Source: Candidatus Calescibacteriota bacterium (GTDB taxonomy: Bacteria; CAIJMQ01; JAADFP01). Taken from it: DNA of 47,399 bases. This document shows, one piece after another, positions 11,887 to 31,797 of the stretch; the first letter of the stretch is position 1, and each line of letters opens with the position of its first letter. Position numbers and translations under genes: made by a program. The stretch is from NCBI GenBank assembly GCA_021162785.1, contig JAGGYA010000021.1:1-47399 (forward strand), written 5' to 3'. Below the pieces are notes generated by a model, which saw nothing but the letters and a program-made list of their open reading frames with translations, had not been told where the DNA came from and made no database searches.

Positions 11887-12419
11887 AGAAGGGATTTAAT
11901 CTTTTCTATTTTTTCCTTAACTTCTTTACCTAAGGAAGTAGTATCTATAGCCTCCATCAATTCCTTTATTTTTTCTTTTTTTTCTTCCTCTTCCTGGATC
12001 TTCTTCCCCAGTTCTTCTAAGAGTGTTGCTAAGCGAGTAACCCTATCCCCTTTTCTCAATCTTATACTCTCAGGAATTTTTCCTCTTTTCATTTCCTCCA
12101 GAATTTTTTCCAGTCGATAAAGGGGACCAGCAACTCTATGGGAATGGAGGAGGGCTAAAGTAGCCAAAAATAGAGTGGAGAGAATTATTATCAGAATGCA
12201 ACCAATAAGCAATAATCTTTCAGTAGTAAGGAGGTACTTCTCCAAAAGTGTGTTTCCTTCAACTAAGAGAAGGAGGGAGGAGGTAGACTGACTGTAAATA
12301 TAAAGAAAAAAAATTGAATAGAACAAACTGAGTACCATACCACTTCCAGCAAGTAAAGCAATAAAATTAAATTGAATAGCAGGATAAACAAAATATCTTC
12401 TTCTTTTCTTCTTTTCCAT
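11883..12419 (-). CDS. HAMP-type two-helix membrane protein
   Basis: This 178-residue protein has two transmembrane helices (about residues 20-42 and 68-92) separated by a short external loop of about 25 residues. A cytoplasmic HRVAGPLYRLEKIL motif follows, the start of a HAMP-like linker found in chemoreceptor-like proteins of deltaproteobacteria and related anaerobes. The tail is a strongly charged coiled coil (roughly 125-178). No kinase, methyl-accepting or cyclase output domain follows, so it may be a truncated receptor or a scaffold. It is the last gene of the long minus-strand operon, 10 bp after the ferredoxin gene. Confidence 0.6.
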   Translation of the reverse strand: MEKKKRRRYFVYPAIQFNFIALLAGSGMVLSLFYSIFFLYIYSQSTSSLLLLVEGNTLLEKYLLTTERLLLIGCILIIILSTLFLATLALLHSHRVAGPLYRLEKILEEMKRGKIPESIRLRKGDRVTRLATLLEELGKKIQEEEEKKEKIKELMEAIDTTSLGKEVKEKIEKIKSLL

Positions 12420-12429
12420 TTACCTCTTT

Positions 12430-12681
12430 TTACACTTTTACCTTTTCCCTGTCAAGAGAGATTTTTCGGTAAATGGTAATGGCTACATCGGGGCAGATGG
12501 TAATGCAATTGAGGCATCCTGTACATTTCTCTTGAAACTTAGCTTCTACTGGATGGTATCCTTTACTATTTCTTCTGGAGGAGATTACAAGAACTCCTTG
12601 AGGACAAAATCCTATACATAATCCACACCCTTTACATTTTTCCTCATCCACTTTGATGATAAAAGAATACTTTGAAGCCAT
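12430..12681 (-). CDS. Dicluster [4Fe-4S] ferredoxin
   Basis: This is an 83-residue bacterial ferredoxin with two C-x2-C-x2-C-x3-C motifs: CKGCGLCIGFCP near residue 15 and CTGCLNCITICP near residue 53. They are separated by an insert of about 25 residues. The pattern resembles the delta subunit of 2-oxoacid:ferredoxin oxidoreductases (KorD/OorD), but no alpha, beta or gamma subunit follows. Here it is probably a soluble electron carrier serving the Fe-S proteins of the operon. Confidence 0.88.
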   Translation of the reverse strand: MASKYSFIIKVDEEKCKGCGLCIGFCPQGVLVISSRRNSKGYHPVEAKFQEKCTGCLNCITICPDVAITIYRKISLDREKVKV

Positions 12682-12685
12682 TTTC

Positions 12686-14386: not shown

Positions 14387-15245
14387 GCTTAGAGAATTTA
14401 GAGGATTTTATAAGAACAATATCCCCTACTTCACCTTTTATATCCCTTGCCACTACGGAACACTTAATCTGGAGGAGGAAAAAAAGAGGGGCTTCTACCT
14501 CGCTTAAAGTCTCATAATTCCCCTGACCTTTTGCCAGGATGAGATCCGAAGAGTGGAATATTTCTCTAAATTTTGAAGAAGAGGATTCCAGTAAAACTCC
14601 CGGAGTTTCATCACCCGTAGAGATTATCTCTGCTACTTCATCCATTTTTATCTCTCTTGCTTCCCTTTCCGTCACATCGTTGATCACAGGCTCCCCCCTT
14701 ACCGCAAAATACACCTTTTTCCCTGGAGGGAATTTCCTTATTACCTCACGGTCAAATACTGCCTCACCTGCATTATCACCTATGTAAAGTATGGTTTGGG
14801 CAGATTCTAAATGGGTTAGAAATTGCTGGAATTGAAAATGCTGGAAGGACTTTATCAATGTTCTTCTTAAATGTTGCAGTAATTCCTTTTCTTCCACATT
14901 CCCCTGTTTAATTACAAAATCGATAAAATTACCTGCCCCAGAAAGCTTCATTAAATCTGCCAGATCCATTGAGGGAATATCCAGTTTCTCAATAACCTTC
15001 TCCACAACTAAATTGGATTGAACTTTATATTCCCTTAAAGGATCTTCGATTTGGGTAAATTTTTTAATGGTTTGATAAATTCTTTTTCCCATTTCCGGCG
15101 GTTTTGAAGAAAGGGAAAAGTGGGGTATAAAAGTGGAAATTTCATCTAAAATACGCTTTTGTAGATCCTCGCTTAATTTTAGTAAACGAAAAATATCCAA
15201 AGCCTGTTTGAAAAAGCAGGGTATACATTCAAGATAGGTTCTCAT
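14373..15245 (-). CDS. DUF89 / ARMT1-like metal-dependent protein
   Basis: This 290-residue member of the DUF89 family starts MRTYLECIPCF, with the characteristic C-x2-C at residues 6-9. It shows the metal-site motifs IGDNAGEAVFD, RGEPVINDVT and STGDETPG, followed by LAKGQGNYETLSE. Characterised eukaryotic relatives are Mn/Ni/Co-dependent damage-control phosphatases acting on sugar phosphates; the small prokaryotic Cys-type members are less well studied. It overlaps the ATPase gene by 14 bp, so the two may work together. Assignment is by motif only. Confidence 0.82.
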   Translation of the reverse strand: MRTYLECIPCFFKQALDIFRLLKLSEDLQKRILDEISTFIPHFSLSSKPPEMGKRIYQTIKKFTQIEDPLREYKVQSNLVVEKVIEKLDIPSMDLADLMKLSGAGNFIDFVIKQGNVEEKELLQHLRRTLIKSFQHFQFQQFLTHLESAQTILYIGDNAGEAVFDREVIRKFPPGKKVYFAVRGEPVINDVTEREAREIKMDEVAEIISTGDETPGVLLESSSSKFREIFHSSDLILAKGQGNYETLSEVEAPLFFLLQIKCSVVARDIKGEVGDIVLIKSSKFSKHAKL

Positions 15246-15246
15246 A

Positions 15247-16032
15247 TTAAAATTTTATTTCTGCACCACACCCAAAATTCAAAAAATCATCCCTCCATTT
15301 ATTTTTAAAAAATATGATGGCTTTATCTCCTGTGCAATGGGAGGGACCCACCTTAGCCACTCCTAATCTTTTAAGTTGAGAAACTATTTCTTTTACTTCC
15401 CTTTCCGAAGCGGAAAGAAGATGAAATCCTCCCAGCAACATATAAATATTTTTATGAAAGCGATCCTTAACATATTCCACAATATTAACAATCCCCGGAT
15501 GAGCACACCCGGTAAGAATTACTAAACCTTTATCACAATCCATTACCAATGACTGTTCTTTTATCCCTTTTCCCAATAAGCCTGTTGACCATACCCCATC
15601 CATGATTTTTAAAGGACCACTTACCTTAATTACCTTTTGGGCTAAGGTAGAAACTTTTTCCACAAAACTGGGAGGAGATATAGCGGGTAGATAAACCGTA
15701 ACTTTACCATTCCGTTGAAGGAAAGAAATAAGACCACCAATATGATCCGCATGGAGATGGGTGATAAAGATTACTTTAATATCCTGAGGAGCTATTCCTA
15801 ATTTTTTAAGATTCTGAAGCAGTATTGAACCATCACTACCTGTGTCAAATAAGATTTTGTAAGTATAGCCTTCAATGACACAGGAAATACCCCAATCGGT
15901 AATTAATCCCTTTTTGTAAGGGAGATTATTATAGACAACTATAATACGGTGGGTTTGGGAAAAGAGAAAAAAGGGGAGAAATGAACTCAAAATTATGATT
16001 ATTGCAGTAAAAACCTTCAGTAATTTTCCCAT
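15247..16032 (-). CDS. Exported metallo-beta-lactamase-fold hydrolase
   Basis: This 261-residue protein has a hydrophobic signal-like N-terminus (residues 6-26) before an MBL domain of the MJ0301 type. The metal motif is THLHADHIGG, with further ligand regions at LTGCAHPGI, GGFHLL and SHCTG near the C-terminus. It is a clear paralogue of the next gene upstream but is predicted to be exported or membrane-anchored. Family members include an archaeal pterin-related synthase, but the substrate here is unknown. It sits 1 bp from the paralogue, consistent with a tandem duplication followed by relocalisation. Confidence 0.85.
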   Translation of the reverse strand: MGKLLKVFTAIIIILSSFLPFFLFSQTHRIIVVYNNLPYKKGLITDWGISCVIEGYTYKILFDTGSDGSILLQNLKKLGIAPQDIKVIFITHLHADHIGGLISFLQRNGKVTVYLPAISPPSFVEKVSTLAQKVIKVSGPLKIMDGVWSTGLLGKGIKEQSLVMDCDKGLVILTGCAHPGIVNIVEYVKDRFHKNIYMLLGGFHLLSASEREVKEIVSQLKRLGVAKVGPSHCTGDKAIIFFKNKWRDDFLNFGCGAEIKF

Positions 16033-16749
16033 TTAAAAGGTAAGAGTTGCACCTGCACCCAAGGAGAGGAAGTTTTCTTCGTATGCTTCCTGGAAGGCTT
16101 TTATTGCTTCCCAACCCGTGCAATGAGTGGGACCAACTTTTTCTATACCCAGACTCTTGAATTTCTCGATAATGTAGTCTATCTCGCTTTTCCCTTTGTC
16201 TAAGAGGTGGAATCCTCCAAGCACTGCAAAGATTTTCTCCTGGGGGAAGAATTGTTTTACCCTTTCCAGAATTGCTACTATCCCTGGATGGGAACAGCCC
16301 GTGATGATTATCAATCCTTTCTCCATTTTCACAATTAGGGATTGTTCAGGCATTGCTCCTCCCATATATACTCCCTTAATTAGCCCCGTGGTAAATATGT
16401 TGGGCTGGAGTTCTTTAAATTCATCGTTGATAATATACTTCCCTCCACCTTTTTTAATAATTATTTTAATTTCCTCTCGGAAACTTGAAAGGATATATAC
16501 TTCTTTCCCTGGATATTGGTGAAGAAAACCATAGAGCCCACCCGTATGGTCATAATGGTCATGAGAAATCACAATTTTTTGAATTTTATTAGCATCTACT
16601 CCCATTGTTTTAACATTTTTAACTAAAAGATCACCATCTTCCCCTGTATCAAAAAGAACATCTTCATTTACTAAGCAAGAGAAACCCCACCCCATTTCAA
16701 ATTTGCTCCGGTCCTGGGTGTAATTGTCAAATAAAATTTTTATTTCCAT
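16033..16749 (-). CDS. Cytoplasmic MBL-fold hydrolase (MJ0301-like)
   Basis: This 238-residue metallo-beta-lactamase-fold protein has the ligand motif SHDHYDHTGG, then ITGCSHPGIV, GGFHLLDKG and GPTHCTG, in the same order as its exported neighbour. No signal peptide is present. COG1237-type members of this group are annotated as dihydropterin-related or metal-dependent hydrolases without firm function. It is followed directly by the exported paralogue and lies 2 bp after the radical SAM gene, so it is part of the same transcript. Confidence 0.87.
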   Translation of the reverse strand: MEIKILFDNYTQDRSKFEMGWGFSCLVNEDVLFDTGEDGDLLVKNVKTMGVDANKIQKIVISHDHYDHTGGLYGFLHQYPGKEVYILSSFREEIKIIIKKGGGKYIINDEFKELQPNIFTTGLIKGVYMGGAMPEQSLIVKMEKGLIIITGCSHPGIVAILERVKQFFPQEKIFAVLGGFHLLDKGKSEIDYIIEKFKSLGIEKVGPTHCTGWEAIKAFQEAYEENFLSLGAGATLTF

Positions 16750-16751
16750 TT

Positions 16752-17690
16752 TTAACCTCCCCTCTTTGGAACAAAATAAATTTTGTTGTTAAACAATTTT
16801 TCTGTAATTTTACCTTTTTTTAACAAAATTTCAATATATTTAAGGATCTCCAGCTTATGAATCCCTAAGGAAGCGGAAAGATTATTTAAAGTTGCTGGTC
16901 TTCGCATGAGGAAAGAGAGGATTTCTTCTTCCAGATGAGCCTTAGGAGAAATTTTCCCTCTTTTTCTAAATTCCGAAATGAATTCTGCTTTACTGCCTAA
17001 GAGTTCTTTTATCTTATTGAGCTTATTTTTCTCCGGAACTTTCACCCATTTTTCCGAAGGGGGGCGGGTGGGGACATTTAATTGGACTTTGTCCGGTTTT
17101 ATTTTCTCTATTGCTCTCTTAAGAGATAAAATTTCTTCCGGTGTATCATTTATCCCATCTACTATCATTATTTCAATCCATAACTTCCCTTCATAGATTC
17201 TTCGGAAATTTATTAATCCTTCCACAATTTTTTCTATTTCCAGTTGGGGATGGGGTCGATTGAGTTTTTGAAAAGTTTCTTTATCAACTGTATCCAAGGA
17301 GGGAATCACAAGGTCAGCTCTCTTTAATTCTTCTCTTACCTCAGGAAGAGTAAGTAGAGTTCCATTGGTAAGTATGGCTACTGGATGGCAAGAAATTCTT
17401 TTGATTTCCTCAATCATTCTCCCTATTTCTAAGTGAAGAGTAGGTTCTCCACTTCCAGAGAAAGTTATGAAATCAATCCTTCTTCCCTCGGAAAGCACCT
17501 CTTTTAAATTTTCCATAATTTTTTCCGTGGGTAAGTAAACTCTGCGATTAATAGTTTTGAGAGTAGTCTTACCCAGTTGGCAATATACACAATCTAAGGT
17601 GCAGGTTTTAAAAGGTATGGGGTCTATTCCCAGAGAGAATCCTAATCTCCGTGAAGGAACAGGACCAAAAATATAGTTTAATTCAGCCAT
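16752..17690 (-). CDS. COG0731-type radical SAM protein with winged helix
   Basis: The first 230 of 312 residues form a radical SAM domain with the cluster motif CTLDCVYCQ near residue 29. It is preceded by [16 protein letters not shown], typical of the COG0731 Fe-S oxidoreductases distantly related to the tRNA wyosine enzyme TYW1. The SAM-binding GSGEPTLH is also visible. The C-terminal ~70 residues ([15 protein letters not shown] onward) look like a winged helix. The substrate is unknown. The 5' end overlaps the Mrp gene by 13 bp. Confidence 0.85.
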
Positions 17691-18511
17691 TCCTCAACTC
17701 TTTTAATAATCTCTATCATCTTTTCCTTTACTCTTCCTTCTCTTAGAATTACTGGTATACCTTCATCACCACACTCTACAACCGAAACATCCAATGGGAG
17801 ATAGCCTAAGAACTCAATTCCCAGTTCTTTTGCAGACCTTTCTCCGCCTCCCTTTTTGAAGAGATATATTTCCTTCCCACAATGAGGACAGATAAACCCA
17901 CGCATATTTTCTATCAAGCCTATCTTTTTCACTCCCAATTCCCGGGCAAACCTTACTGCTTTACGGGAATCTAATAGTGCTACATCTTGAGGAGTGGTTA
18001 CAACAATGGCAATATCAGTTTGAGGGATTAACTGGAGAATGCTTAAAGGTTCATCGCCTGTACCGGGAGGGGAGTCCACCACTAAGAAGTCAAGTTCCCC
18101 CCATTCCACATCTGCTAAGAATTGTCTTATTACACTTGCTTTTAATGGCCCTCTCCAAATCACTGGAGTATCTTTTCCTTGTAATAAGAAAGCCATACTA
18201 ATTACTTTTAATCCCTTATTCCACTCAGGGGGTATGATTCTTCCCCCCTCCATGATCAGTTTTTCCCTCTCCATTCCCAGCATTTTGGGGACATTGGGAC
18301 CGTGAATATCCACATCTAAAATGCCCGTCTTGTATCCTTCTTTTTGTAAAGCTACACTAAGGTTTACTGCTACGGTAGTTTTCCCAACCCCTCCTTTCCC
18401 ACTAAGCACTAAAATTTTATATTTAACCTTCTTCATATTCTCTTTAATCCTCTGATTTTGTTCTTGAATCATTTTCATTTTTTCTTCTGGAGAAAGTCTA
18501 TTCCCTTTCAT
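17678..18511 (-). CDS. Mrp/NBP35-type Fe-S carrier ATPase
   Basis: This 277-residue P-loop ATPase has the deviant Walker [11 protein letters not shown] near residue 36, [20 protein letters not shown] and, near the C-terminus, [14 protein letters not shown] with the CPHC Fe-S-binding pair. Mrp/ApbC/NBP35 proteins bind and transfer [4Fe-4S] clusters. The ATG at 18511 is chosen because it overlaps the DUF169 stop (ATGA) and has GGAGGGG six bases upstream; the longer frame to 18586 lacks such a site. An Mrp-like ATPase next to MinD-ferredoxin ATPases recurs in the orange-protein loci of sulfate reducers. Confidence 0.9.
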
Positions 18512-19122
18512 TTTTTCCCCTCCAAAAGCTTTTTCGCTAAAGGATGTGGGACACCTACCACGAAGGTCTCTCGAGGAATATTGCATTTCTGTCTGGAAAC
18601 TTCACAAGTTAAGGCTATAGTTATATTTTTCTTTATGAAACTTCCCACTGTAACTTCACCACAGACCCCTAATATTCCGGTAAGAGAAATTTTTAATCTT
18701 TCTCCAGTAATTGTGTGGTAATCCCAGATTAGTTTCCCCAATTGAGAAGGTGGTAAATGGGAAAGATAAATATCTGCCTCATTTTCCATTTCCAAACCAA
18801 TATATTGATATCCCGGTGGGAGTTGGGGTATTGCTGAAATTAGAGAGAAAAATTTTTCTTTATTAACTCCTTTACCTGCTTTCTGACAATTTCTGTAAAC
18901 TTCTTCACGGTTCCCTTCTCTAAGAAATACAAATCTTTCTCCAGGATGAGTGACCTGCCTTAAATCAATTATTATTGGACCAATAACTTTTGCCTGATTT
19001 AATGCCTCACAGAAATTTAGATTTTTTAAAGCATTTTGATGATGGGGAGGTATTTCGTGGTAAAAGTTTATTTTGATCCAAGGCCCCCGATAGTGGCATT
19101 CTAATCTTTTAACCATTTCCAT
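18508..19122 (-). CDS. DUF169-like protein
   Basis: This 204-residue soluble protein has [10 protein letters not shown] near residue 36 and a central [10 protein letters not shown]. The later [15 protein letters not shown], and a following cysteine in [11 protein letters not shown], correspond to the cysteine-containing motifs of the DUF169 family. That family has no established activity and is frequent in methanogens and anaerobic bacteria. Several cysteines suggest metal or redox chemistry, but this is inference. It lies between a MinD-ferredoxin ATPase (1-bp gap) and the Mrp gene (4-bp overlap). Confidence 0.65.
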
Positions 19123-19123
19123 T

Positions 19124-19987
19124 TTAAGCCTCCCTTAATCTTTCCCAAGTTTCAATAATGGTTTCTTTGAAAGACTCATCCATTACCTCAACTGGAGGGA
19201 TCCTTTGTTTTACTGCATCAATAATCTTTTCTTGAAAGGGTATTTTCCCAATCACCTCTATGTTATTCTGTTCCGCAAATTCTTCGATTTGGTAGCAATT
19301 TTTTGGATTTATATCGAACTTGTTAATAAGGAGAAAGACCTTTACTCCAAAATGGTGGGCTACACCAATAACTCTTTCCATATCGTGAATTCCAGAGAGA
19401 GTAGGTTCTGTGACTATAAGAGCGGTATTTACCCCACTCAGAGCGGAGATTACTGGACAGCCAATTCCAGGTGGGCCATCAATGAGAATATACTCTAATC
19501 CTTCCTTAACAGCTAATTCTCGTGCCTTTTCTCTCACCACACTTACCAGTTTCCCTGAATTTTCCTGAGCAATTCCCAGTTGTGCATGAACTAATGGACC
19601 ATAAGGAGTGGAAGATACAAAGAATTCTCCTGTTTCTTCTATTTCCAATTTGATTGCCTGTTGTGGACAGACAAGATAACAAACTCCACAACCCTCACAG
19701 GCATATTCATCAATAAAGTATTTTTCTCCTTCCTTATAAATGGCTCCAAATCTGCAGAATTCCTGGCATTTACCGCAATTTTCACACTTTCCGTAATCAA
19801 TAGAGGCTTTTCTACCTCCATGAAAAGTATAAGTTTCCTGAATTTTTGGAGTAACCAGAAGATGAAGATTAGCTGCATCAACATCTGCATCCACCAAGAC
19901 TTTATTTTCCGCTACCACACCTAAGGAAGCAGTTATAACTGTTTTCCCTGTTCCCCCTTTTCCACTTGCAATAACAATTTCCTTCAT
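19124..19987 (-). CDS. MinD-superfamily ATPase with inserted ferredoxin domain (copy 1)
   Basis: This 287-residue ATPase begins with the deviant Walker A ASGKGGTGKT and DADVDAAN. An inserted dicluster ferredoxin at about residues 65-115 follows (CENCGKCQEFC and CEGCGVCYLVCP). Walker B is LIDGPPGIGCPV, and a C-terminal VTEPTLSGIHDM completes the COG1149 pattern. Such proteins occur in pairs in anaerobes; two are part of the orange protein (ORP) complex in Desulfovibrio. The function is thought to be metal-cluster assembly or electron transfer coupled to ATP. The second copy is at 21378-22214. Confidence 0.9.
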   Translation of the reverse strand: MKEIVIASGKGGTGKTVITASLGVVAENKVLVDADVDAANLHLLVTPKIQETYTFHGGRKASIDYGKCENCGKCQEFCRFGAIYKEGEKYFIDEYACEGCGVCYLVCPQQAIKLEIEETGEFFVSSTPYGPLVHAQLGIAQENSGKLVSVVREKARELAVKEGLEYILIDGPPGIGCPVISALSGVNTALIVTEPTLSGIHDMERVIGVAHHFGVKVFLLINKFDINPKNCYQIEEFAEQNNIEVIGKIPFQEKIIDAVKQRIPPVEVMDESFKETIIETWERLREA

Positions 19988-20008: not shown

Positions 20009-20284
20009 TTAAATTTTGGATTTGGCTATTCGGTTGAGTTTTTTTCTGAGAAGAGCAAGTTCCTTTTCTATTTTTTGAATCTGTGTATGTATATCTTTAA
20101 GAGAATAAGAAGGCTTTATCTTTTTTATTGCAGACCGAGGACATATCTTTGCACAGAGGAGGCACTCTCTACAAAGAGAAGTGTTTATAGAGGCTTTCCC
20201 CATTATCACTTTAATAGCTCCTGTAGGGCAAACTCTTTCACAAGCACCACATCCTAAGCATAAGGAAACATCTACCCTCAACAT
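20009..20284 (-). CDS. Dicluster ferredoxin with C-terminal coiled coil
   Basis: This 91-residue protein has two [4Fe-4S] motifs: [12 protein letters not shown] near residue 9 and [12 protein letters not shown] near residue 38. An amphipathic charged helix follows ([19 protein letters not shown]). The ATG at 20284 with AAGGAGG upstream is preferred over an in-frame TTG at 20299. The added coiled coil could dock it on a partner and resembles the helical tails of small proteins at the head of this operon. It lies between metV and the first MinD-ferredoxin gene. Confidence 0.82.
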
Positions 20285-20310
20285 CTTTTCCTCCTTCAAA
20301 TTGAAAAATA

Positions 20311-21042
20311 TTAAATTCCTAAGGATTGGATTACTTTCTTAGTCTCCTTGAGTTTTTCCAGAAGGTCTATAGGTTCTACCTCTAATTTCCTTGGTCTAAG
20401 AGCCTTTTCCCAATTATGGGGTGGGTGTATTTTTTTGAGGAGAGAAAGTTTTCCCAAATTTTTTAATCTCTCATAAATCAATACCCAGGCACAGTCTTTC
20501 TCAGGATCCACTTCACATTTCCCATTGGGACGAGTGCCACCACATGGGCCATTGAGTAATCCCTTTGGACATTGAGTTAGAGGACATATCCCTGCAGTCA
20601 AACCCACTTCACATTCCCCACAACCCTGACACTTTTCCAGAAATTCTTTTGGCCCTTCACCAAAGAAGCCAAGTGCATTATTAGCTGGGTATACAGGTTT
20701 AATGATACCTTTTTCTTTTTCTAAGTAACTGCGAACCACCTGTAATCCATCACCACAACTCATCATTAATACAGCATCACAATCTCTAAATTCCTTTTCA
20801 AACTGGTTGACAAACATAGAACTCATGGGTAGATAGCAGCAAAACACACCAAAAGGTAAACCTATAGCAGCCAGAACCTCTTTCCCTTCCTTTTTAAGAG
20901 TCTCTGCCATATCCTCCACTTCCTTTACACCTCCTGTGTGGAAAATCGTGGCACATCCACCACATCCCATAATCACTATTTTCTTGGCACCGTTTAAATA
21001 CTCCATTATTTCCTCTAAGGGTTTCTGAACTTGCCCCATCAT
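20311..21042 (-). CDS. metV: MetV-type methylenetetrahydrofolate reductase accessory protein
   Basis: This 243-residue protein has an N-terminal [16 protein letters not shown] and a cysteine-rich C-terminus with [17 protein letters not shown], then [15 protein letters not shown] and a final [12 protein letters not shown]. These are the signature of the MTHFR C-terminal/MetV family. In acetogens MetV pairs with MetF, bringing Fe-S clusters to methylene-THF reduction in the Wood-Ljungdahl pathway. No metF lies in this window, so MetV is either separated from its partner or recruited elsewhere. The ATG at 21042 has GGAGG upstream. The gene lies 3 bp after the NifX-like gene. Confidence 0.85.
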
Positions 21043-21045
21043 CTC

Positions 21046-21381
21046 TTAATCCTCCTTTCTATTTTCCTCAAGATAAGGGAGAATTTCTTTTATTTTTCCC
21101 TTTACACCTACAAAGAATTTAATTCCCCATTCATTAAAGAAGTCCTGTGCTCTTTTACCCATTCCTCCAGCTACCACCAAATTTACTCCCTTTTCCTTCA
21201 AGAAAGCGGGGAGAGCCCCTGGTAAAGGAGAAGAGTTTAGGTAAGGATTAGGAATTTCCTCGATTATTTGGAATCCTTCTTCTGTTTTCCCTACAATTAC
21301 AAAAATTACACATTTCCCGAAATGGGGAGAAATAATACTTTCCCACCCTTTACTATCTTGGCAGGCAAAGGCTATCTTCAT
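21046..21381 (-). CDS. NifX/NafY-like cofactor-binding domain protein
   Basis: This 111-residue single-domain protein of the dinitrogenase FeMo-cofactor-binding family starts MKIAFACQDSKG. It has SPHFGKCVIFV, a run NPYLNSSPLPG, and VVAGGMGKRAQDFFN. The NifX/NifB-C/ORP fold binds metal-sulfur clusters. In Desulfovibrio the related orange protein holds a Mo-Cu cluster and is encoded beside MinD-ferredoxin ATPases, the same arrangement as here. No nitrogenase genes are seen, so a role in nitrogen fixation is unlikely. It overlaps the ATPase gene by 4 bp. Confidence 0.85.
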   Translation of the reverse strand: MKIAFACQDSKGWESIISPHFGKCVIFVIVGKTEEGFQIIEEIPNPYLNSSPLPGALPAFLKEKGVNLVVAGGMGKRAQDFFNEWGIKFFVGVKGKIKEILPYLEENRKED

Positions 21382-22214
21382 TTTATTTTCACCAATTTTT
21401 TAATTTTTTCCCATAAATTTTGGAATTTATCTTTGTGTTCTTCTGCTAAGGTTTCCCCCTTAGAGTAACTCTCTGCAATTTCCCTTTTCAAAGGTATCTT
21501 GTCCAATACCGGGATATCCCTTTTTTCACAGTATTCTTCGATAAGTTCATCACCTTTTCCAGCTCTATTGATGAGCACACCTTTCTTTACTCTTAGTTCA
21601 TCACACATCCTTACTGCTAAGTCCAAATCATGGAGGCCAAAAGGGGTGGGTTCAGTGACAAGAAGAGCAAAATCTGCACCGTGTACCGCCTCTACAACTG
21701 GACAGGAAGTGCCTGGGGAAGTATCTATGATTGTATCTATTTCGTCTTTTGGAATCTTCTTTTTCAAAGCCTTTACTAAAGGAGTGGGGGAGGATTCGCC
21801 TACGGTAAGTTTCCCTTGCCAGAATTTAATATTTTCAACAGTTCCACTTTCAATTATTCCCTTCTCCACATCCACTTCAAATATTGCCTGGTAAGGACAA
21901 GCTATGCTACAAGCACCACAAGAGTGACAAAGTTCATGAAATATTAAGACTTGCCCTTTTACCACTGCAATTGCATTATATTGACATACTTCTGCACATT
22001 TACCACACCCTTTACACTTTGTATCATCAACTATTGGTTTGGGGAGGTAGATAAACTCCCTTTTTTCTATCTTTGGCTTTAGAAAAAGAAAGGCATTAGG
22101 TTCTTCCACATCTGCATCGATGAAGAGGACCGGTTTTTCCAGGGATAAAGCTAAACTGGTAGAGATCAAAGTTTTCCCTGTTCCCCCTTTCCCACTGGTT
22201 ACTGCTACTATCAT
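21378..22214 (-). CDS. MinD-superfamily ATPase with inserted ferredoxin domain (copy 2)
   Basis: This 278-residue paralogue of copy 1 has the deviant Walker A TSGKGGTGKT, IDADVEEPN, and a ferredoxin insert at about residues 63-110 with CKGCGKCAEVC and CHSCGACSIACP. Walker B is IIDTSPGTSCPV, and TEPTPFGLHDLDL completes the set. The two copies are similar in plan but clearly diverged, as in the paired ATPases of ORP loci, where they are believed to act together. It overlaps the methyltransferase by 4 bp upstream and the NifX-like gene by 4 bp downstream, so expression is tightly coupled. Confidence 0.9.
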   Translation of the reverse strand: MIVAVTSGKGGTGKTLISTSLALSLEKPVLFIDADVEEPNAFLFLKPKIEKREFIYLPKPIVDDTKCKGCGKCAEVCQYNAIAVVKGQVLIFHELCHSCGACSIACPYQAIFEVDVEKGIIESGTVENIKFWQGKLTVGESSPTPLVKALKKKIPKDEIDTIIDTSPGTSCPVVEAVHGADFALLVTEPTPFGLHDLDLAVRMCDELRVKKGVLINRAGKGDELIEEYCEKRDIPVLDKIPLKREIAESYSKGETLAEEHKDKFQNLWEKIKKLVKIK

Positions 22215-22852
22215 CTTTCTCCCTCAAAAGAAATTTTCATTCCAATAAATCCTCCAAAGGGGAGGAATCTCAATTTTGGGAGTAAAAGTGGATATAACAC
22301 GGTTTTCCAGTAAATCTTTTTTAGAATGAATTTTTGGTTATCCATAGCCATTTTTGCCAATCTTTTAAGAGATAGAGGATTATAAAAGGTCCCAAAGGAA
22401 CAATAACTTTGAGAAAAAAGACCCTTTATTCGTCGGCTTATTCCTAAGATACTCCAACTGTTAAGTACACCCAAAAAAATTATGCCCCGACTCACCCGAT
22501 AAGCTTCTTTTAAGGCCTGGATAGGGTTGTGAATATACTCCAGCGAAGTAATAAAAATTACTCCATCAAAACTCTTTTCTTTAAAAGGTAGTTGTTGTGC
22601 ATCTCCTTGGATGAGATATTTCACTCGCTTATTTTCTTTTGCAAATTTCAGCATGGGAAACGAGATGTCTATTCCCACCACTTCATAACCTTCTTTTTCC
22701 AGCCAGGAGGCAAATCTACCTGTTCCTGTTCCAACTTCCAGGATCTTTCCTTTAGAAGGTAGGAAAGATTTCATGAGATCCGTCTCCTCTTTGAAAGCCC
22801 TTTTTCCAAAATTTTCTTCATACCATCTATCATATTTTTCTACCCATTTCAT
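22211..22852 (-). CDS. Class I SAM-dependent methyltransferase
   Basis: This 213-residue Rossmann methyltransferase has motif I ILEVGTGTGRFA near residue 37, VVGIDISFPML, and GDAQQLPFKEKSFDGV. It belongs to the ubiE/COQ5-like superfamily, but the acceptor is unknown. Start at ATG 22852 (MKWVEKYDRW) rather than the TTG at 22882, because it overlaps the J-domain gene stop in the usual ATGA manner, although its ribosome-binding site is weak. Methyltransferases of this small type recur near MinD-ferredoxin genes in anaerobes. Confidence 0.8.
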   Translation of the reverse strand: MKWVEKYDRWYEENFGKRAFKEETDLMKSFLPSKGKILEVGTGTGRFASWLEKEGYEVVGIDISFPMLKFAKENKRVKYLIQGDAQQLPFKEKSFDGVIFITSLEYIHNPIQALKEAYRVSRGIIFLGVLNSWSILGISRRIKGLFSQSYCSFGTFYNPLSLKRLAKMAMDNQKFILKKIYWKTVLYPLLLPKLRFLPFGGFIGMKISFEGER

Positions 22853-23142
22853 TTTTTCCCGCTTAACCAATCTCCCTCCCAAAATTGTTTTTTAAGTCTT
22901 TCTTCCAGGTCTAATTTTTCCACATCCTCCTTCCGAAAAGAAAGGGGATAATGAAGGTAGTAATCTTTTAGGATGTCATAGGCCCAATTAATCTTCTTTA
23001 TTTTCTCCGTAGTATTTTTCCCCTTATCTGGATGACTTTTTTTGGTTAATTCCCTGTATCTCTGGACAATTTCTTCCCAGCAAGCTTCTTCTCCTAAACC
23101 TAAGATCTTTCTTGCCCGATTAATCAACTCAAATTTTTTCAA
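22849..23142 (-). CDS. Small J-domain protein
   Basis: This 97-residue protein consists mainly of a J domain: RARKILGLGEEACWEEI, then the invariant HPD in SHPDKGK near residue 37, and INWAYDILKD. It lacks the Gly/Phe and zinc-finger regions of DnaJ, so it is a J-only co-chaperone that may direct an Hsp70 to a specific client. By analogy to HscB it could assist Fe-S protein maturation, fitting its neighbours, but it lacks the HscB C-terminal domain. It overlaps the thiamine-binding protein gene by 14 bp. Confidence 0.82.
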   Translation of the reverse strand: MKKFELINRARKILGLGEEACWEEIVQRYRELTKKSHPDKGKNTTEKIKKINWAYDILKDYYLHYPLSFRKEDVEKLDLEERLKKQFWEGDWLSGKK

Positions 23143-23437
23143 CTAATTTCTCCTTTAAAGAAGACACTTTACCTTCTATAGTTAAAGGTTTGTCTTTTCT
23201 TTCATCGATTTTTACAGTGGTTACAACCCTTACCACATCACTTTCCAAAACAGCTCTATGCATTTCTTCAACCAATTTCAGCAATTCAGAAATTTCCCCT
23301 TCCACGATTGTCCCCATAGAGGTAATCTCAAACTTTACTCCCTTCCTTTTCAGAACCTCCACTGCTTTAGCAACATATTTACTTACAGATGGAGTAGATG
23401 TTCCTATAGGAATAATGCTAATCTCTGCAATAGCCAT
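23129..23437 (-). CDS. MTH1187/YkoF-type thiamine-binding protein (DUF77)
   Basis: This 102-residue ferredoxin-like-fold protein of COG0011 has the signature start AEISIIPIGTSTPSVSKYVA, then TSMGTIVEG and later VVTTVKIDERKD. Family members bind thiamine-like ligands and form tetramers, and are common in archaea and anaerobes. Its link with the Fe-S operon is not explained by sequence. AAGGAG upstream supports the ATG, which lies 18 bp after trxA. Confidence 0.88.
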   Translation of the reverse strand: MAIAEISIIPIGTSTPSVSKYVAKAVEVLKRKGVKFEITSMGTIVEGEISELLKLVEEMHRAVLESDVVRVVTTVKIDERKDKPLTIEGKVSSLKEKLVEKI

Positions 23438-23455
23438 ATTTTACTCCTTACAAAA

Positions 23456-23782
23456 TTATTCCTCTATGTAATTTTTTAGTTTTTCCACAATTGTCTCCTT
23501 AGGGACAGCACCAACGATTCTTTCTTTTTCCTCTCCATCTTTAAAAATAATCAAAGTGGGAATAGCCATCACACCGTAATCAGTAGCAGTGACTGGTGCT
23601 TCATCAACATTTAGCTTACATACCTTCACCTTACCAGCATATTCCATAGAAATTTCTTCCACTATAGGTGAGACTATCATACATGGACCACACCAGGGTG
23701 CCCAAAAATCCACCAGGACTGGTTTCCCCTTTTCTTCCAGCACCTCTTTTCTGAAGTTTATATCGGTCAAAGGTATAACCAT
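23456..23782 (-). CDS. trxA: Thioredoxin
   Basis: This 108-residue classical thioredoxin has the active site WAPWCGPC near residues 28-35 and the cis-proline loop VMAIPTLIIF. It should reduce protein disulfides in the cytoplasm. In this operon it may receive electrons from the flavoprotein at 24458-25816, since no dedicated thioredoxin reductase is adjacent; that pairing is inference. The gene is 4 bp after the OsmC-family gene. Confidence 0.95.
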   Translation of the reverse strand: MVIPLTDINFRKEVLEEKGKPVLVDFWAPWCGPCMIVSPIVEEISMEYAGKVKVCKLNVDEAPVTATDYGVMAIPTLIIFKDGEEKERIVGAVPKETIVEKLKNYIEE

Positions 23783-23786
23783 TCTT

Positions 23787-24215
23787 CTACCCTCCCTCTT
23801 TTATTTCAGGAGATAGTATTATCTCACAATTTAAGGAATTTGAAATCAAACAGTGATTCTTAGTTTTCTCCATAATTATTTTTACCTTTTCCAACTCCCC
23901 TTTTTCAACTTTAATTTGGGGAAGTATTTTTACTTTCTCAAATTTGAGTTTCCCTTCTTTGAATATTACTTCACCTTCAATCTTGCTTTGATAAGAAAGC
24001 AAATGAATTTGAGCTTTTTCTACAAAATAAAGAAAAGTTGTGAGAATGCAAGAATCAATTGAAGCTAAAAAGAGTTCTTCAGGACTTATGAAACCCTGGG
24101 GACCTTTAAATTCAGGTGGAGTAGAAATCTCTATTTTTAAATTGTTAGGGAAGGAAACCACTCCTTTCTTACCCTCTATCCATTTTAACTCTGTAGAAAA
24201 AGTAAAAGGTTTCAT
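23787..24215 (-). CDS. OsmC/Ohr-family protein
   Basis: This 142-residue protein of the OsmC fold has GPQGFISPEELFLASIDSC near residues 40-58, including the conserved active-site cysteine C58. A second cysteine lies near the C-terminus in KTKNHCLISNSL. The two cysteines fit a thiol peroxidase (organic hydroperoxide) mechanism. The pairing with thioredoxin next door suggests an oxidative-stress role in an anaerobe. It is 3 bp from the zinc-ribbon gene. Confidence 0.88.
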   Translation of the reverse strand: MKPFTFSTELKWIEGKKGVVSFPNNLKIEISTPPEFKGPQGFISPEELFLASIDSCILTTFLYFVEKAQIHLLSYQSKIEGEVIFKEGKLKFEKVKILPQIKVEKGELEKVKIIMEKTKNHCLISNSLNCEIILSPEIKEGG

Positions 24216-24218
24216 CTT

Positions 24219-24437
24219 CTATTCTCTTACCATGGGTGTCCCACAGTTAGGACAATTAAGAGTGTAGCAGGGGACGCCCCGTTCATGAGGCACCCGAGTT
24301 CCACAGCGGGGACAAATGCAGTATCCTCCAGGACCTTTTCCTAACCCTCCCATTCTTCCTCTACCTCCACCTCTACCCATGCCTCTTCCCATTCCCGGAC
24401 CAGCACTTAGAGGCCCAGTTCCATTACCACGGGGCAT
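24219..24437 (-). CDS. Glycine/methionine/arginine-rich small protein with zinc-ribbon tail
   Basis: This 72-residue protein begins MPRGNGTGP, the start of DUF5320-type proteins. It runs through a Gly/Met/Arg-rich stretch (GMGRGMGRGGGRGRMGG) and ends in two C-x2-C pairs (CPRCG and CPNCG) with a third, CICP, just before. The ATG at 24437 is chosen over GTG 24446 because AGGAGGTGAG lies five bases upstream. The repeats resemble the tail of the NifX-like protein at 26094-26684. Function unknown; metal binding by the ribbon is likely. Confidence 0.72.
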   Translation of the reverse strand: MPRGNGTGPLSAGPGMGRGMGRGGGRGRMGGLGKGPGGYCICPRCGTRVPHERGVPCYTLNCPNCGTPMVRE

Positions 24438-24457
24438 TTTTCTCACCTCCTTTCATT

Positions 24458-25816
24458 TTAAGAAATATCTCTCATTTTTCTGGTCCCATCCATTGTGGCA
24501 GCCACTAAAGGATAAAGTGTGGGAGGAGAAGTGAGCCAGGGATGCGTAGCCATTTGGAAAGTTTCCAGTTCAACAGCCGGTGCTCTTTTCTGAATAGCCA
24601 TTCCCACAACATTAATGAGTTCACCCACACTTGCACCTCCAGCAATTTGACCACCAAGGATGGTTGTAGAAAGTCGTGAGAATATAAGTTTTATCCTTAT
24701 CTTTTTAGTTCCATGAAGGGTGGCAGGATGTTTATCCGGGACAGTAGTTTCACCTATCACCACTTCGAAGTTCTCCTCCTCCGCTTTTCTCTGAGTCAAC
24801 CCCGCTGAACCAAGAACCTGCTCTCCAACTTTTGTTGAGAAGACAGCAATGGTCCCCTTTATTTCCCTCAAAACCTTCACTCCAAAAAGATTGGAGCCTG
24901 CCACTCTTGCCTCCGCAGTAGCAGTGGAAGCAAGCATCACTGGAAGGTGTTTCCTTGTAAAGAAACAACGTTTTTCAGCACAGTCTCCAACAGCAAAAAT
25001 GCTGGGATCTGATGTTCTCATGTATTCATCCACCCAAATTCCTCCTCCTCTCCCAATCCAGAGACCCATATCCTCAGCCATTTTAATGTTCGGTTTTGCT
25101 CCAATGGATAAAATTACGAGATCAGCAGGGATGGTCTCTCCGCCAGAAAGTTTGACTTCTGATACCCGTTTCCCACCTTCAAAACTTACCACTTTTCTTC
25201 CCAGCCACAACTTTACTCCTTTTTTCCTGAGTTCTTCTTCTGCAAGAATACAGAATTCTTCGTCAAATGCCCGAAGTAGACAATGGGGAAGAAGTTCCAC
25301 GATATGAATTGACTTCCCGCTAATATTGGATATCTCATCTGCAAATTCCACTCCTATAAATCCTCCTCCCACAATTACAATATTTCTTGCTTTATAGACT
25401 TCTTCCCGTAAAGTTTCCAGATACTCAAGTTCCTTTTTTATAGTGAAGATTCCTTCCTTTTCCACACCCGGAATTTTAGGAATCAAAGGTTCTGATCCTA
25501 TAGCCAGAATAAGTTTGTCGTATTTGATCTTTTTACCATTAGCCAATTTTACTTCTTTTTTATCTCGGTCAATCTGGATGACTTTGCCTATGAGAACTTC
25601 AATATCGTGGGTTTTAAGTGGTTCATCAGAAAGGATGTCCTTTTTAGCAGAGTCTAAACTATGAAAGATATAGGGTATACCGCAAGGAATTACACTCACC
25701 TTATGTTCCCTTATCAATAAAAAATTTTTTTTAGGATAATATTTTTTTCCCGTAACTGCACTTACCACTCCCGCAGGTCCTCCACCAATTACTACAACAT
25801 CAAAAAATTCGGCCAT
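24458..25816 (-). CDS. FAD-dependent disulfide reductase-like oxidoreductase
   Basis: This 452-residue flavoprotein of the CoA-disulfide reductase/NADH oxidase/polysulfide reductase group has FAD motif VVVIGGGPAGVVSA near residue 7. The redox cysteine is in VIPCGIPYIF near residue 45, and the NAD-binding VIVGGGFIGVEFADEI lies near 155. FAVGDCAE precedes the C-terminal dimerisation domain. The single conserved cysteine, not a CxxC pair, separates it from thioredoxin reductases. It could reduce CoA-disulfide, polysulfide or oxygen. The ATG at 25816 has AAAGGAG about eight bases upstream. Confidence 0.87.
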   Translation of the reverse strand: MAEFFDVVVIGGGPAGVVSAVTGKKYYPKKNFLLIREHKVSVIPCGIPYIFHSLDSAKKDILSDEPLKTHDIEVLIGKVIQIDRDKKEVKLANGKKIKYDKLILAIGSEPLIPKIPGVEKEGIFTIKKELEYLETLREEVYKARNIVIVGGGFIGVEFADEISNISGKSIHIVELLPHCLLRAFDEEFCILAEEELRKKGVKLWLGRKVVSFEGGKRVSEVKLSGGETIPADLVILSIGAKPNIKMAEDMGLWIGRGGGIWVDEYMRTSDPSIFAVGDCAEKRCFFTRKHLPVMLASTATAEARVAGSNLFGVKVLREIKGTIAVFSTKVGEQVLGSAGLTQRKAEEENFEVVIGETTVPDKHPATLHGTKKIRIKLIFSRLSTTILGGQIAGGASVGELINVVGMAIQKRAPAVELETFQMATHPWLTSPPTLYPLVAATMDGTRKMRDIS

Positions 25817-25857
25817 TTTCTTCACTCCTTTCCCTTCTTTACCTTAACTTTTTACCT

Positions 25858-26091
25858 TTACTTTTCGCAGCAGCGCTTAGGGTTATCGCAGGGATTTGGA
25901 CAGCAGGTGGGCTTTTTATAATCTGTGGCGTAAAATCCGGGACCTTTGAAAATAAAACCACCACCTCCCGAGAAGAGTCTCTGAACTTCTCCCCCACACT
26001 TAGGGCAGGTTTTAATGGCTTCTTCTTTTATACTTTGGAATTTTTCAAATCTATAGCCACAATTTTTGCACTGGTATTCGTAAGTAGGCAT
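25858..26091 (-). CDS. FmdB-type zinc-ribbon protein
   Basis: This 77-residue protein starts [16 protein letters not shown] and contains [18 protein letters not shown]. The paired C-x2-C ribbons are typical of the FmdB family of putative regulatory proteins. The tail adds an unusual cysteine cluster (CCPNPC, then [10 protein letters not shown]) that goes beyond the family core and could hold metal. It starts 2 bp after the NifX-like gene. Confidence 0.85.
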
Positions 26092-26093
26092 TT

Positions 26094-26684
26094 TTATTTC
26101 TCCTTTTCCAATTCCTCAATCCTCTTAAGAATGACCTCTAATTGTTTTTTCAAATTATCAGCTTGGTTCTTGAGCATTTTAAGTTCTTCCTCTCGGGAAA
26201 GTGAGGGAGGAGTAGGAGTAGAAGGAGCAGGTGGATAGAAACCGGGGGCCATTCCCCAGCCTCTCCCTCTCCCCATACCAAAGCCTCCCATTCCTCTTCC
26301 CATACCAAAACCCATTCCGGGACCCATTCCAAAGTGGGGTGGAACATTGGGTTGGAAAGCGGGCTGTAATTCGCCCCGTTTAAATCTTTCCACTGCATCT
26401 CTTACTCTACCCACTACACCCACGATTACCTTTACACCTGCAGTTTGGAGTACCTGAAAAGCATTTGGACCGCAACTCCCTGTAAGGACTGCTTCCACGC
26501 CTTGGTTAGCTACAAATTGGGCTGCCTGAATTCCTGCTCCGGTGAGACTGTGAGCATATGGATTTTCTATTGCTTCAAACTCCATACTTTCAGTATCCAC
26601 AATGATGTAGTATGGGCATCGGCCAAATCTTGGATCCACGGAGGAATCAAGAGAACTTCCCTGAGCAGTTACCGCAATCTTCAT
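26094..26684 (-). CDS. NifX-like protein with Gly/Met-rich linker and coiled coil
   Basis: Residues 1-115 form a dinitrogenase cofactor-binding (NifX/ORP-like) domain: [37 protein letters not shown] and [14 protein letters not shown], the last with a cysteine at a likely cluster site. Residues 118-150 are glycine/methionine/arginine/phenylalanine-rich ([20 protein letters not shown]), followed by a proline stretch. Residues 160-196 are a coiled coil ending [10 protein letters not shown]. The last module resembles the end of the neighbouring 108-residue protein. The ATG overlaps that gene's stop (ATGA) with GGAGGGG upstream. It is clearly distinct from the single-domain NifX at 21046. Confidence 0.87.
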
Positions 26685-27007
26685 TTTTTCCCCTCCAGTT
26701 CCTCAATCCTTTTCCTTATACTTTCTAATTGATCCTCTAATAGTTCCTGTTGCTGCCTAAGGTAGTTAAGTTCATCCTCTGGAGTAGGTGGATTAGCAAA
26801 TGGGAAACCAAATGCTGGGAAAGGTGCATATCCGCTCTGGAATGCCTGCCAGAAAGCCTGCATTTGTGGAGTTGGCCATGTTCCATAGAGAAGGTAGGTA
26901 GCTGCTGGACCAAGTCCTGTTGGGCTTCTTCCTATCCATCCCGGTGAAAATCCAAACCTCATCCAACCGGGAAGCCCGGTGAGATAGAACATCCAGCGAT
27001 ACCTCAT
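26681..27007 (-). CDS. Trp/Phe/Tyr/Pro-rich small protein with coiled-coil tail
   Basis: This 108-residue protein is unrecognised beyond DUF5320-like character. The N-terminal 75 residues are rich in W, F, Y, G and P. From about residue 75 a charged helix starts PTPEDELNYLRQQQELLEDQ and ends [10 protein letters not shown], closely matching the end of the NifX-like neighbour. The helical tails may let these proteins associate. No signal peptide or clear membrane helix is seen, although the N-terminal 30 residues are hydrophobic. AAGGAGGTGA upstream of the ATG supports the start. Confidence 0.65.
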   Translation of the reverse strand: MRYRWMFYLTGLPGWMRFGFSPGWIGRSPTGLGPAATYLLYGTWPTPQMQAFWQAFQSGYAPFPAFGFPFANPPTPEDELNYLRQQQELLEDQLESIRKRIEELEGKK

Positions 27008-27033: not shown

Positions 27034-27246
27034 TTACCAGTAAGGAAAGTATCTATAACCCCAGGTTGCCCAGCTGGCAGGAGTCCACCATCCTGCATAA
27101 TAAGGTATGGTGGAGGCGTAGTAACCTGCATAAGGAGTTGCCCACCACCAGCGAGGTAACCAGGGGAACCATCTGCAGAAAGGATAGGGATTTCCTCTCC
27201 ATCCCCATCCATACCACCATCCACCTCTTCCAAATCCACGGGGCAT
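27034..27246 (-). CDS. Trp/Tyr-rich small protein, first gene of the sigma-54 operon
   Basis: This 70-residue protein begins MPRGFGRGGWWYGWGW and is almost all W, Y, G, P and A. It shares the MPRG start with the zinc-ribbon protein at 24219, so a DUF5320-like relationship is plausible. ATG 27246 is chosen because AAAGGAGGTGAG lies directly upstream; a longer frame to 27339 would run through the hairpin and promoter. There is no catalytic motif. Function unknown; repeated aromatic residues could bind a ligand or another protein. Confidence 0.6.
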   Translation of the reverse strand: MPRGFGRGGWWYGWGWRGNPYPFCRWFPWLPRWWWATPYAGYYASTIPYYAGWWTPASWATWGYRYFPYW

Positions 27247-27275
27247 CTCACTCACCTCCTTTCTTTCAGGGAAAA

Positions 27276-27292
27276 AGCAAAGTTCATGCCAA
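27276..27292 (-). promoter_or_regulatory. Sigma-54 (-24/-12) promoter
   Basis: Read on the minus strand, the site is TTGGCATGAACTTTGCT. The GG and GC elements are 12 bases apart, as required, and the only deviation from TTGGCAC-GR-N3-TTGCW is C to T at one position. The predicted start, about 12 bases below GC, falls near 27265. That gives a ~19-base leader holding the AAAGGAGGTGAG ribosome-binding site before the ATG at 27246. Confidence 0.75.
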
Positions 27293-27304
27293 ATTGAAAA
27301 TGTG

Positions 27305-27343
27305 CTTAAAATAAAGGGTTTTTGAGATACCTTACTCAAAAAC
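27305..27343 (-). terminator. Hairpin terminator after tgt
   Basis: A perfect 9-bp inverted repeat (GTTTTTGAG / CTCAAAAAC, at 27318-27326 and 27335-27343) with an 8-base loop lies 16 bp downstream of the tgt stop. On the minus strand it is followed by CCTTTATTTT, a modest U-rich tail. It would separate the divisome operon from the sigma-54 operon. The AT-rich stem makes strength uncertain. Confidence 0.5.
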
Positions 27344-27359
27344 TGTTTAATTATGAAAC

Positions 27360-28849
<1,490 letters not shown>

Positions 28850-29639: not shown

Positions 29640-30850
29640 AATTCTTTCACCTCCTTTCTTGCCATCTCCATGATTCTTTCATCACCAGGATGGGAAAGAA
29701 CCATATCTATGAGTTTAGCAATCACCTCCATTTCTTCCTCTCCCATCCCACGGGTTGTAATGGCTGGAGTTCCAATTCTAATTCCACTGGTTTGAGCAGG
29801 GGGTAAAGGGTCGTAAGGAATAACATTTTTATTTACGCTTATTCCCACTTTTCCTAAGAGGTCTTCTGCCTGTTTTCCAGTAAGCCCCTTGTTTCTCAAA
29901 TCCACCAGAAAAAGGTGAGTATCCGTGCCACCACTTACTATTCTATAACCTTTTTCTTTCAGTAAATTAGCCAATCTTTTTGCATTTTGAATGACCCTTT
30001 TCTGATACTCTTTAAATTCCGGTTGGAGTGCCTCTTTAAAACAAACCGCTTTTGCTGCTATTACATGCATTAAAGGTCCCCCCTGGATTCCAGGAAAAAC
30101 CGATTGATCCACTATGGAGGCAAATTCCTTCTGACACATAATAATGCCTCCTCTTGGACCTCTTAAAGTTTTGTGAGTGGTGGAAGTAACAAAATGGGCA
30201 TGAGGGAAAGGAGAAGGATGGAGTCCAGCAGCAACTTCCCCAGCAATATGGGCTATATCTGCAAGAAGATAGGCTCCGACTCTCTCCGCTATTTCCCGAA
30301 AAGTTTTAAAATCAATGATTTTAGGGTAAGAACTTGCACCACATATTATTATTTTTGGTTTATGCTTAATGGCTTTATCTTCTACTTCATTAAAATCTAT
30401 TTCCTCCTTTTTGGGATCTACTCCATAATATACAGGAGTGAAGAGTGTGCCGGAAAAATTTATCTTATGTCCATGAGTCAGATGACCACCAGAGGAAATA
30501 TCCATTCCCAGAATTACATCTCCTGGCTTTAAAAGTGCTAAATAAATAGCCATATTTGCCTGAGAACCGGAGTGAGGTTGCACATTCACATGGGGGGCAG
30601 AGAATAGTTCTTTAGCCCTTTTTATAGCCAGCTTTTCTATTTCATCTATGAACTCACAACCCCCATAGTATCTTCTTCCAGGGTAGCCTTCTGCATATTT
30701 ATGGGTAAGCACAGAGCCCTGAGCTTCTCTCACTGCAGGAGAGGTGTAGTTTTCTGAAGCAATAAGGATAAGGTTAGATTTTTCCCTTTCTTCTTCCTTT
30801 TTTATCCAATTATAAATTTCCGGGTCTACTTGAGAGAGAGTCTTTAACAC
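29609..30850 (-). CDS. glyA: Serine hydroxymethyltransferase
   Basis: This 413-residue PLP enzyme interconverts serine and glycine and supplies methylene-THF. Conserved motifs are [12 protein letters not shown] near residue 26, [24 protein letters not shown], the PLP lysine in [14 protein letters not shown], and [13 protein letters not shown]. Length is typical. The start is GTG 30850, overlapping the ftsZ-like stop by 7 bp, with GAGAGGGG upstream. Placement inside the divisome operon is unusual. Confidence 0.96.
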
Positions 30851-31797
30851 AGTGAACCCCTCTCTTCCAGAACAGGAATTTCAGAAATTAACTTTTTCTT
30901 AAAAGTTTTTATTCCCAGAAGTATTACCTTAAGGCGATTCTCCAGTTCCCCTTTCACTACAGCACTTATGGCAATTAGAGCCTCTGGATTAATTCTTAAA
31001 GTCACTGCTTCACATATTTTAGTTAATTCTTGCATGGTTAAGTCTTCCCCACACTGAACACTTATTAAAATTCTCCGGATTTGACGGGGATTTATACCTT
31101 GCCATGATGGACAGGAAATTATATCATCAATCACCTTATGAGAGCGATTTTCTCCTTCTCTTTCCCCCCAACCTAAGACCACTTCGCCACCCTCTTCAAT
31201 GATTTTCTTTAAAGTGGGAAAGTCTAAGGGGAGGTAGGTTGGGGATAAAAGGGGTTCGATTATTCCTCCAAGAATTCCCGTAATTTCCTTATTTACCTGA
31301 GTAAAAAATTCGTTGAGGGGCGAATTATAAAAAAGACGGTAATACCAATTATTGGAGAAAATTAATAAAGCATCTGCTTCCTGTGCCAAAATTCTTCTAA
31401 GTTGTTGAGCACGGGTGATTTTAAGCTTCCCTTCGAAATCGAAGGGGAGGATTCCAGCCACTATCACCAAACCTTCACCAGACTTTATTTCTCTTACCAA
31501 AGGAAGGAGATATTTTTGAGATATATCCCCCCCAAGCCCTGCCAAGATGAGGAAGAGTTCACCACCTTCTAAGAAAGGGCTTATATCCTTTTTAAGAGAA
31601 GATTCTTTTATTTTTTCCTCTAAAGGGGGTAGGGTTAAGTGAAGAAAGGGGGAGGATGGAAGGGATAGGGTGTCTAAATGAATTAATTCTATCCCAGAAA
31701 GACCCAGGTTTTTAAAACACTCCAGGAGATTTAATCCTGCTTTTCCTAACCCAAGGATTTTTATACGGGGTATCTGGGAACTAACTTCAAAACTCAT
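30844..31797 (-). CDS. Highly divergent FtsZ-like protein
   Basis: The 317-residue protein shows the FtsZ plan. It opens [18 protein letters not shown] (FtsZ nucleotide fold start), then has [11 protein letters not shown] where FtsZ carries its GGGTGTG signature, and [12 protein letters not shown] like TKPFx[15 protein letters not shown] corresponds to the N-x-DFADV of the T7 loop, and [13 protein letters not shown] to the GG-DL-L-E segment. The tubulin signature GGGTGTG (residues 88-94) is absent. In the T7 loop N becomes P and the second acidic residue becomes T, although one D remains. The short end [10 protein letters not shown] may mimic the IPxFLRR tail. It overlaps ftsA by 4 bp. GTPase activity is doubtful; identity rests on plan and synteny. 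Confidence 0.75.

Follow-up and report, generated by a model that had tools for sequence, protein, structure and literature searches.

The window, by which we mean the whole 47,399-nucleotide stretch of DNA analysed here, carries 25 genes in one orientation downstream of a sigma-54 promoter element on the minus strand. The gaps between these genes range from -79 to 32 bp, the -79 reflecting an uncertain start of gene 18. By its content the operon is of the ORP (orange-protein) type, with NifX proteins, paired ferredoxin-MinD ATPases and Mrp, so that the 25-gene redox/metal operon claimed in a preliminary description of this DNA is borne out in both layout and content. The promoter sits in a 113-bp gap downstream of tgt, and the upstream neighbours form a murB-fts-glyA-tgt operon on the same strand. 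The features are as follows.

27355-27368, minus strand: palindrome GAAAC-N4-GTTTC, GAAACATAAGTTTC, overlapping the tgt stop codon, centre at about -96
27318-27343, minus strand: inverted repeat GTTTTTGAG-N8-CTCAAAAAC with 9-bp arms, between tgt and the promoter, centre at about -66
27276-27292, minus strand: sigma-54 -24/-12 promoter element, TTGGCATGAACTTTGCT, matching the consensus
27247-27265, minus strand: predicted +1 (27265, placed from the promoter geometry) and 19-nt leader with Shine-Dalgarno sequence AAGGAGGTGA at 27252-27261
27034-27246, minus strand: gene 1, a 70-aa W/Y/G-rich protein without a Pfam match
26681-27007, minus strand: gene 2, DUF5320 protein
26094-26684, minus strand: gene 3, NifX/orange-protein domain fused to DUF5320
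24219-26091, minus strand: genes 4-6, FmdB-type zinc ribbon, CoA-disulfide-reductase-like flavoprotein, small zinc-ribbon protein
22211-24215, minus strand: genes 7-11, OsmC, thioredoxin, thiamine-binding (MTH1187) family, DnaJ domain, methyltransferase
21378-22214, minus strand: gene 12, MinD-type ATPase with a 2x[4Fe-4S] ferredoxin insert (Orp3/Orp4-like, also by alignment)
20009-21381, minus strand: genes 13-15, NifX-type protein, MTHFR C-terminal-type protein, ferredoxin
19124-19987, minus strand: gene 16, second MinD-type ATPase with a ferredoxin insert
16752-19122, minus strand: genes 17-19, DUF169, Mrp/NBP35 ATPase, radical SAM
11883-16749, minus strand: genes 20-25, two metallo-beta-lactamase-fold proteins, ARMT1-like protein, ABC-class ATPase, ferredoxin, membrane protein

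Within the division cluster of the window, an FtsZ-like gene (30844-31797) is very divergent. Its FtsZ C-terminal domain matches and its tubulin GTPase domain stays below the cut-off (21 bits), a domain that gives a normal match in both same-family relatives; no second FtsZ was found elsewhere in the incomplete (64%) assembly.

The promoter element agrees at all 13 specified positions with TTGGCAYR-N4-TTGCW, reportedly the sigma-54 consensus of Barrios et al. 1999, and contains the GG-N10-GC core. Placing the C of GC at -12 puts +1 at 27265 and hence leaves a leader of 19 nt; the ATG lies 29 bp from the promoter and has a perfect ribosome-binding site. The sigma-54 sequence, the 19-base leader and the ribosome-binding site that had been proposed earlier are thus confirmed. 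Elsewhere in the window there is no second match to the exact sigma-54 16-mer, and pattern searches of the 949-kb assembly returned six exact 16-mers including this one, where a first-order Markov model of the window predicts 0.76 (P(>=6) = 1.4e-4). Under the same model the 17-mer with 13/13 matches is expected about 0.1 times per Mb. Four of the five other exact sites lie a short distance upstream of a correctly oriented start, in front of genes for an HD-domain response regulator, Hsp20, a prepilin and a prepilin-type operon, and the fifth falls within a coding region. We regard the promoter and the operon as very probably genuine.

Sites before Hsp20 and prepilin genes (exact in L010 and L012, with one mismatch in L024) suggest that pilin and stress genes form a sigma-54 regulon in the source organism. 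The last gene of the ORP operon (11883-12419) has a paralogue at L014 1526-2077 (30% over 177 aa); this paralogue comes first after another of the exact sigma-54 sites and precedes a prepilin gene.

A search for rpoN had been proposed in the preliminary description; the assembly encodes RpoN with its activator-interacting, core-binding and DNA-binding domains. That description had seen no enhancer-binding protein (EBP) and had placed the activator elsewhere; indeed, the window contig encodes none, and four true EBPs are found in the rest of the assembly. Three of them are response regulators with GAFTGA (C24, C26 and C11:7572-8903), all with close orthologues in the only two same-family genomes found, G001 and G002. 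The fourth (G000:C11:5351-7000, minus strand) is a one-component PAS-PAS-AAA+-Fis protein. It carries CX8CX3C in its second PAS domain and has the OrpR-type architecture, i.e. PAS, sigma-54 AAA+ and Fis HTH with CX8CX3C in a PAS domain. OrpR is said to detect redox state by means of a [4Fe-4S] cluster held by its PAS domain (a finding ascribed to Fievet et al. 2021). No match covering the PAS region of the C11 activator was found in G001 or G002.

The operon is orthologous in G001 and G002, and its body is closest to theirs, with proteins 2-5 mostly at 68-77% identity. The position of gene 1 is occupied there by a glycine-rich protein of the MPRGDGTGPMG type. In G002, the one same-family relative with an intact 5' end, the operon begins with a Fur gene that follows TTGACA-N16-TATAAT and a near-consensus Fur box, CGATAATCATTATCA; the G001 contig begins partway through this Fur gene, and the final 38 residues of the gene product show 79% identity. 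A Fur-family gene also heads the operon in the same-class genomes G003, G004 and G006 (in G003 judged from gene order). Unlike G002, the window has no Fur gene at the operon head, and searches of its control region revealed neither a Fur box nor a sigma-70 promoter. The control region therefore differs while the body is common to these genomes, and from the sequences compared the same operon appears to have moved between control systems. The single Fur gene of the assembly was considered as a displaced ORP Fur and ruled out: it heads feoA-feoA-feoB and shares about 34% identity with ORP-type Fur.

We collected 106 ORP-type clusters in three ways, starting from the NifX protein, from the C11 activator or, in named genomes, from the MinD ATPase, and counted a sigma-54 site where at least 11 of 13 positions with GG-N10-GC matched before a cluster gene. 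A linked OrpR-like PAS EBP was present in 25 of the 106 clusters and an ORP-type Fur gene in 16, and no cluster had both. Sigma-54 sites preceded genes in 20 of the 25 EBP clusters versus 5 of the 81 others (Fisher 1e-12), counts that are phylogenetically non-independent and include some loci ending short of the operon head; the reversed-pattern control matched in 2 of 106. The set collected by the MinD ATPase only (80 loci), which is free of selection for EBPs, gave the same split (11/13 EBP clusters versus 4/67 others; P = 9e-9). Upstream of the EBP clusters, at about -110 to -166, GCA-N4-TGC palindromes occurred 19 times against 1.0 expected. Loci L062, L076, L114, L121 and L200 carry them in pairs, spaced 30-33 bp, upstream of sigma-54 sites, and these pairs look like binding sites of OrpR-like activators. 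Among the 16 Fur clusters, a sigma-70 promoter with at least 11 of 12 matches was found in 12, and a Fur box better than shuffles (P <= 0.05) in 10. Conservation of GG-N10-GC, which had been suggested as a check on the promoter, is thus lacking in the nearest relatives and present in more distant genomes with a matching activator.

How does the C11 protein relate to the activators linked to such clusters? It shares CX8CX3C with each of the 14 EBPs linked to clusters in the first set. It falls inside the wider CX8CX3C EBP family and outside the cluster-linked subclade, as sister to an EBP of G007, a genome of another lineage that holds its nearest homologue (57%). The recognition helix reads SRTTLWRK in these two proteins versus mostly HKTTLWRK or HKSTLFRK in the cluster-linked EBPs. 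In G007, DUF5320-NifX is preceded at 58 bp by a 12/13 sigma-54 site, and no EBP is linked. The ORP operon with this site also includes a Fur-family gene (L063 10711-11169), an arrangement that is a possible intermediate. The C11-like activator of G007 (L107) has two CX8CX3C PAS motifs and shares its contig with another Fur gene and feoB.

Two palindromes lie upstream of the window promoter, and neither is the motif of the EBP-linked clusters; a search for GCA-N4-TGC palindromes there found none. The inverted repeat at 27318-27343 may be a weak terminator of the tgt operon and/or an activator site: it is terminator-like, and the stretch that holds it has a more stable fold than 199 of 200 shuffles; a search of the assembly for a further copy gave matches at control level only. 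The palindrome at 27355-27368 is a weak candidate for an activator site. Its sequence GAAACATAAGTTTC resembles GAAATAAACATTTC upstream of the G007 sigma-54 site, a likeness noticed post hoc. TTTCA-N4-TGAAA, which precedes the sigma-54 site in G007, was also tried on the window and discarded, its best match having two mismatches, which is shuffle level.

We propose that the sigma-54 promoter would start one long transcription unit, running from 27265 down to about 11883 and encoding an ORP-type iron-sulfur/metal redox module, and that an EBP encoded elsewhere would be needed to open it. We assign a probability of roughly 0.7 to this combination of promoter and unlinked activation, in which the identity of the activator is the weakest step: the promoter at 27276-27292 is well supported, and we infer which protein activates it and where that protein binds. 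The best EBP candidate in the assembly is the OrpR-like one-component regulator C11:5351-7000, and we lean slightly towards it as the trans-acting activator of the operon. By analogy with OrpR, it may bind an iron-sulfur cluster that responds to redox state, and may activate the operon when conditions are reducing. Within the family, the operon body would have been inherited and the control region exchanged. The relatives begin the operon with a Fur-family gene, preceded by a sigma-70 promoter and Fur box where this region can be seen; the window lineage has a sigma-54 promoter and no Fur gene at the head. This exchange probably ran from Fur to sigma-54 control.

If the promoter is real, its activator might be one of the three response-regulator EBPs or an EBP from the unassembled third of the genome. 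The response regulators carry GAFTGA, the window promoter has no recognised OrpR-type palindrome, and, at 64% completeness, the assembly may lack a further activator (or a displaced Fur gene). All three response regulators, however, have close orthologues in G001 and G002, where the ORP operons are Fur-headed, and the EBP type linked to ORP clusters elsewhere is PAS/CX8CX3C, which makes this alternative rather unlikely. We consider it very improbable that the sigma-54 match arose by chance, with transcription coming instead from the murB-fts-glyA-tgt operon or an unrecognised promoter of the sigma-70 type. The murB-fts-glyA-tgt genes do lie on the same strand, promoters may go unseen in AT-rich DNA and one of the six exact sigma-54 sites in the genome is inside a gene. 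Against this stand the 13/13 match at the expected distance, the 113 bp that separate tgt from the operon and include a terminator-like hairpin, the failure to find any sigma-70-like site at 9 of 12 positions in 27100-27500, and the strong general association of such sites with ORP/EBP clusters.

It is also conceivable, and in our judgement improbable, that the sigma-54 promoter is ancestral in the family and that the Fur gene was gained in the lineage of G001 and G002. Sigma-54 architecture is widespread, the distant G007 combines a sigma-54 site with an internal Fur-family gene, and, since only one same-family relative has an intact 5' end, an ancestral sigma-54 site could have been lost in the lineage of that relative. 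Yet the same-class genomes G003, G004 and G006 are Fur-headed as well, which makes Fur the simpler ancestral state.

A broader scheme can be drawn up, which we offer tentatively and rate a little below even odds. ORP operons would exist across bacterial phyla in two mutually exclusive states, Fur/sigma-70 and OrpR-like/sigma-54, so that the module is wired to either iron or redox sensing. In the window lineage, a new promoter region and an acquired, unlinked iron-sulfur PAS activator would have turned the first state into the second. If Fur-family proteins control the module in some clusters and redox-sensing sigma-54 activators in others, with no compared cluster using the two together, then one process may have metal status as its input in the first case and redox state in the second. 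If true, this would offer a direct, testable clue to the purpose of the ORP module and an example of a whole-operon sigma-factor switch inside one family.

Among described systems, those nearest to the window operon include the orp operons of D. vulgaris Hildenborough with OrpR/DVU2106 (PMC3897727, PMC6345978, PMC4641369). The promoters of these Desulfovibrio operons have been studied with an E. coli reporter. The Desulfovibrio orp operons are sigma-54 dependent (PMC6345978, PMC3897727), and their activator binds palindromes at -131 and -88 (PMC3897727). The function of the ORP complex is poorly known, with a link to cell division and iron-sulfur biogenesis in Desulfovibrio. The preliminary description had treated sigma-54 dependence as known for orange-protein loci in Desulfovibrio; that precedent stands (PMC3897727, PMC6345978), but sigma-54 control is not general for such loci, since most of the 106 clusters have no site and the same-family relatives are Fur-headed. 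The window operon shares with Desulfovibrio orp the NifX-type orange protein, the paired ferredoxin-MinD ATPases, the Mrp ATPase, the sigma-54 promoter and a one-component EBP as likely activator. Genes 12 and 16 correspond to Orp3/Orp4, which are paired MinD ATPases with two [4Fe-4S] ferredoxin motifs, and genes 3 and 13 to the NifX-type orange protein Orp8. In contrast to MrpORP/Orp9, where Mrp is fused to a NifX-type domain, gene 18 encodes Mrp/NBP35 alone. Desulfovibrio has two divergent operons and a linked activator gene, whereas the window has a single 25-gene operon with many extra genes, no EBP on the contig and no palindrome of the cluster-linked EBP type. Fur-headed ORP clusters such as those of G002 (L059) and G033 (L061) contain the same gene module, with an orthologous body in G001 and G002, but differ from the window in having a Fur-family first gene behind a sigma-70 promoter and, in most cases, a Fur box. 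The EBP-linked ORP clusters, for example those of G142 (L062, 13/13 site) and G120 (L076), differ in their adjacent EBP gene, in their GCA-N4-TGC palindromes at about -110 to -166 and in a small separate NifX gene that usually comes first. Like the window, they have a sigma-54 site at the head of the operon, and their genomes, like that of the window, encode a PAS EBP with CX8CX3C.
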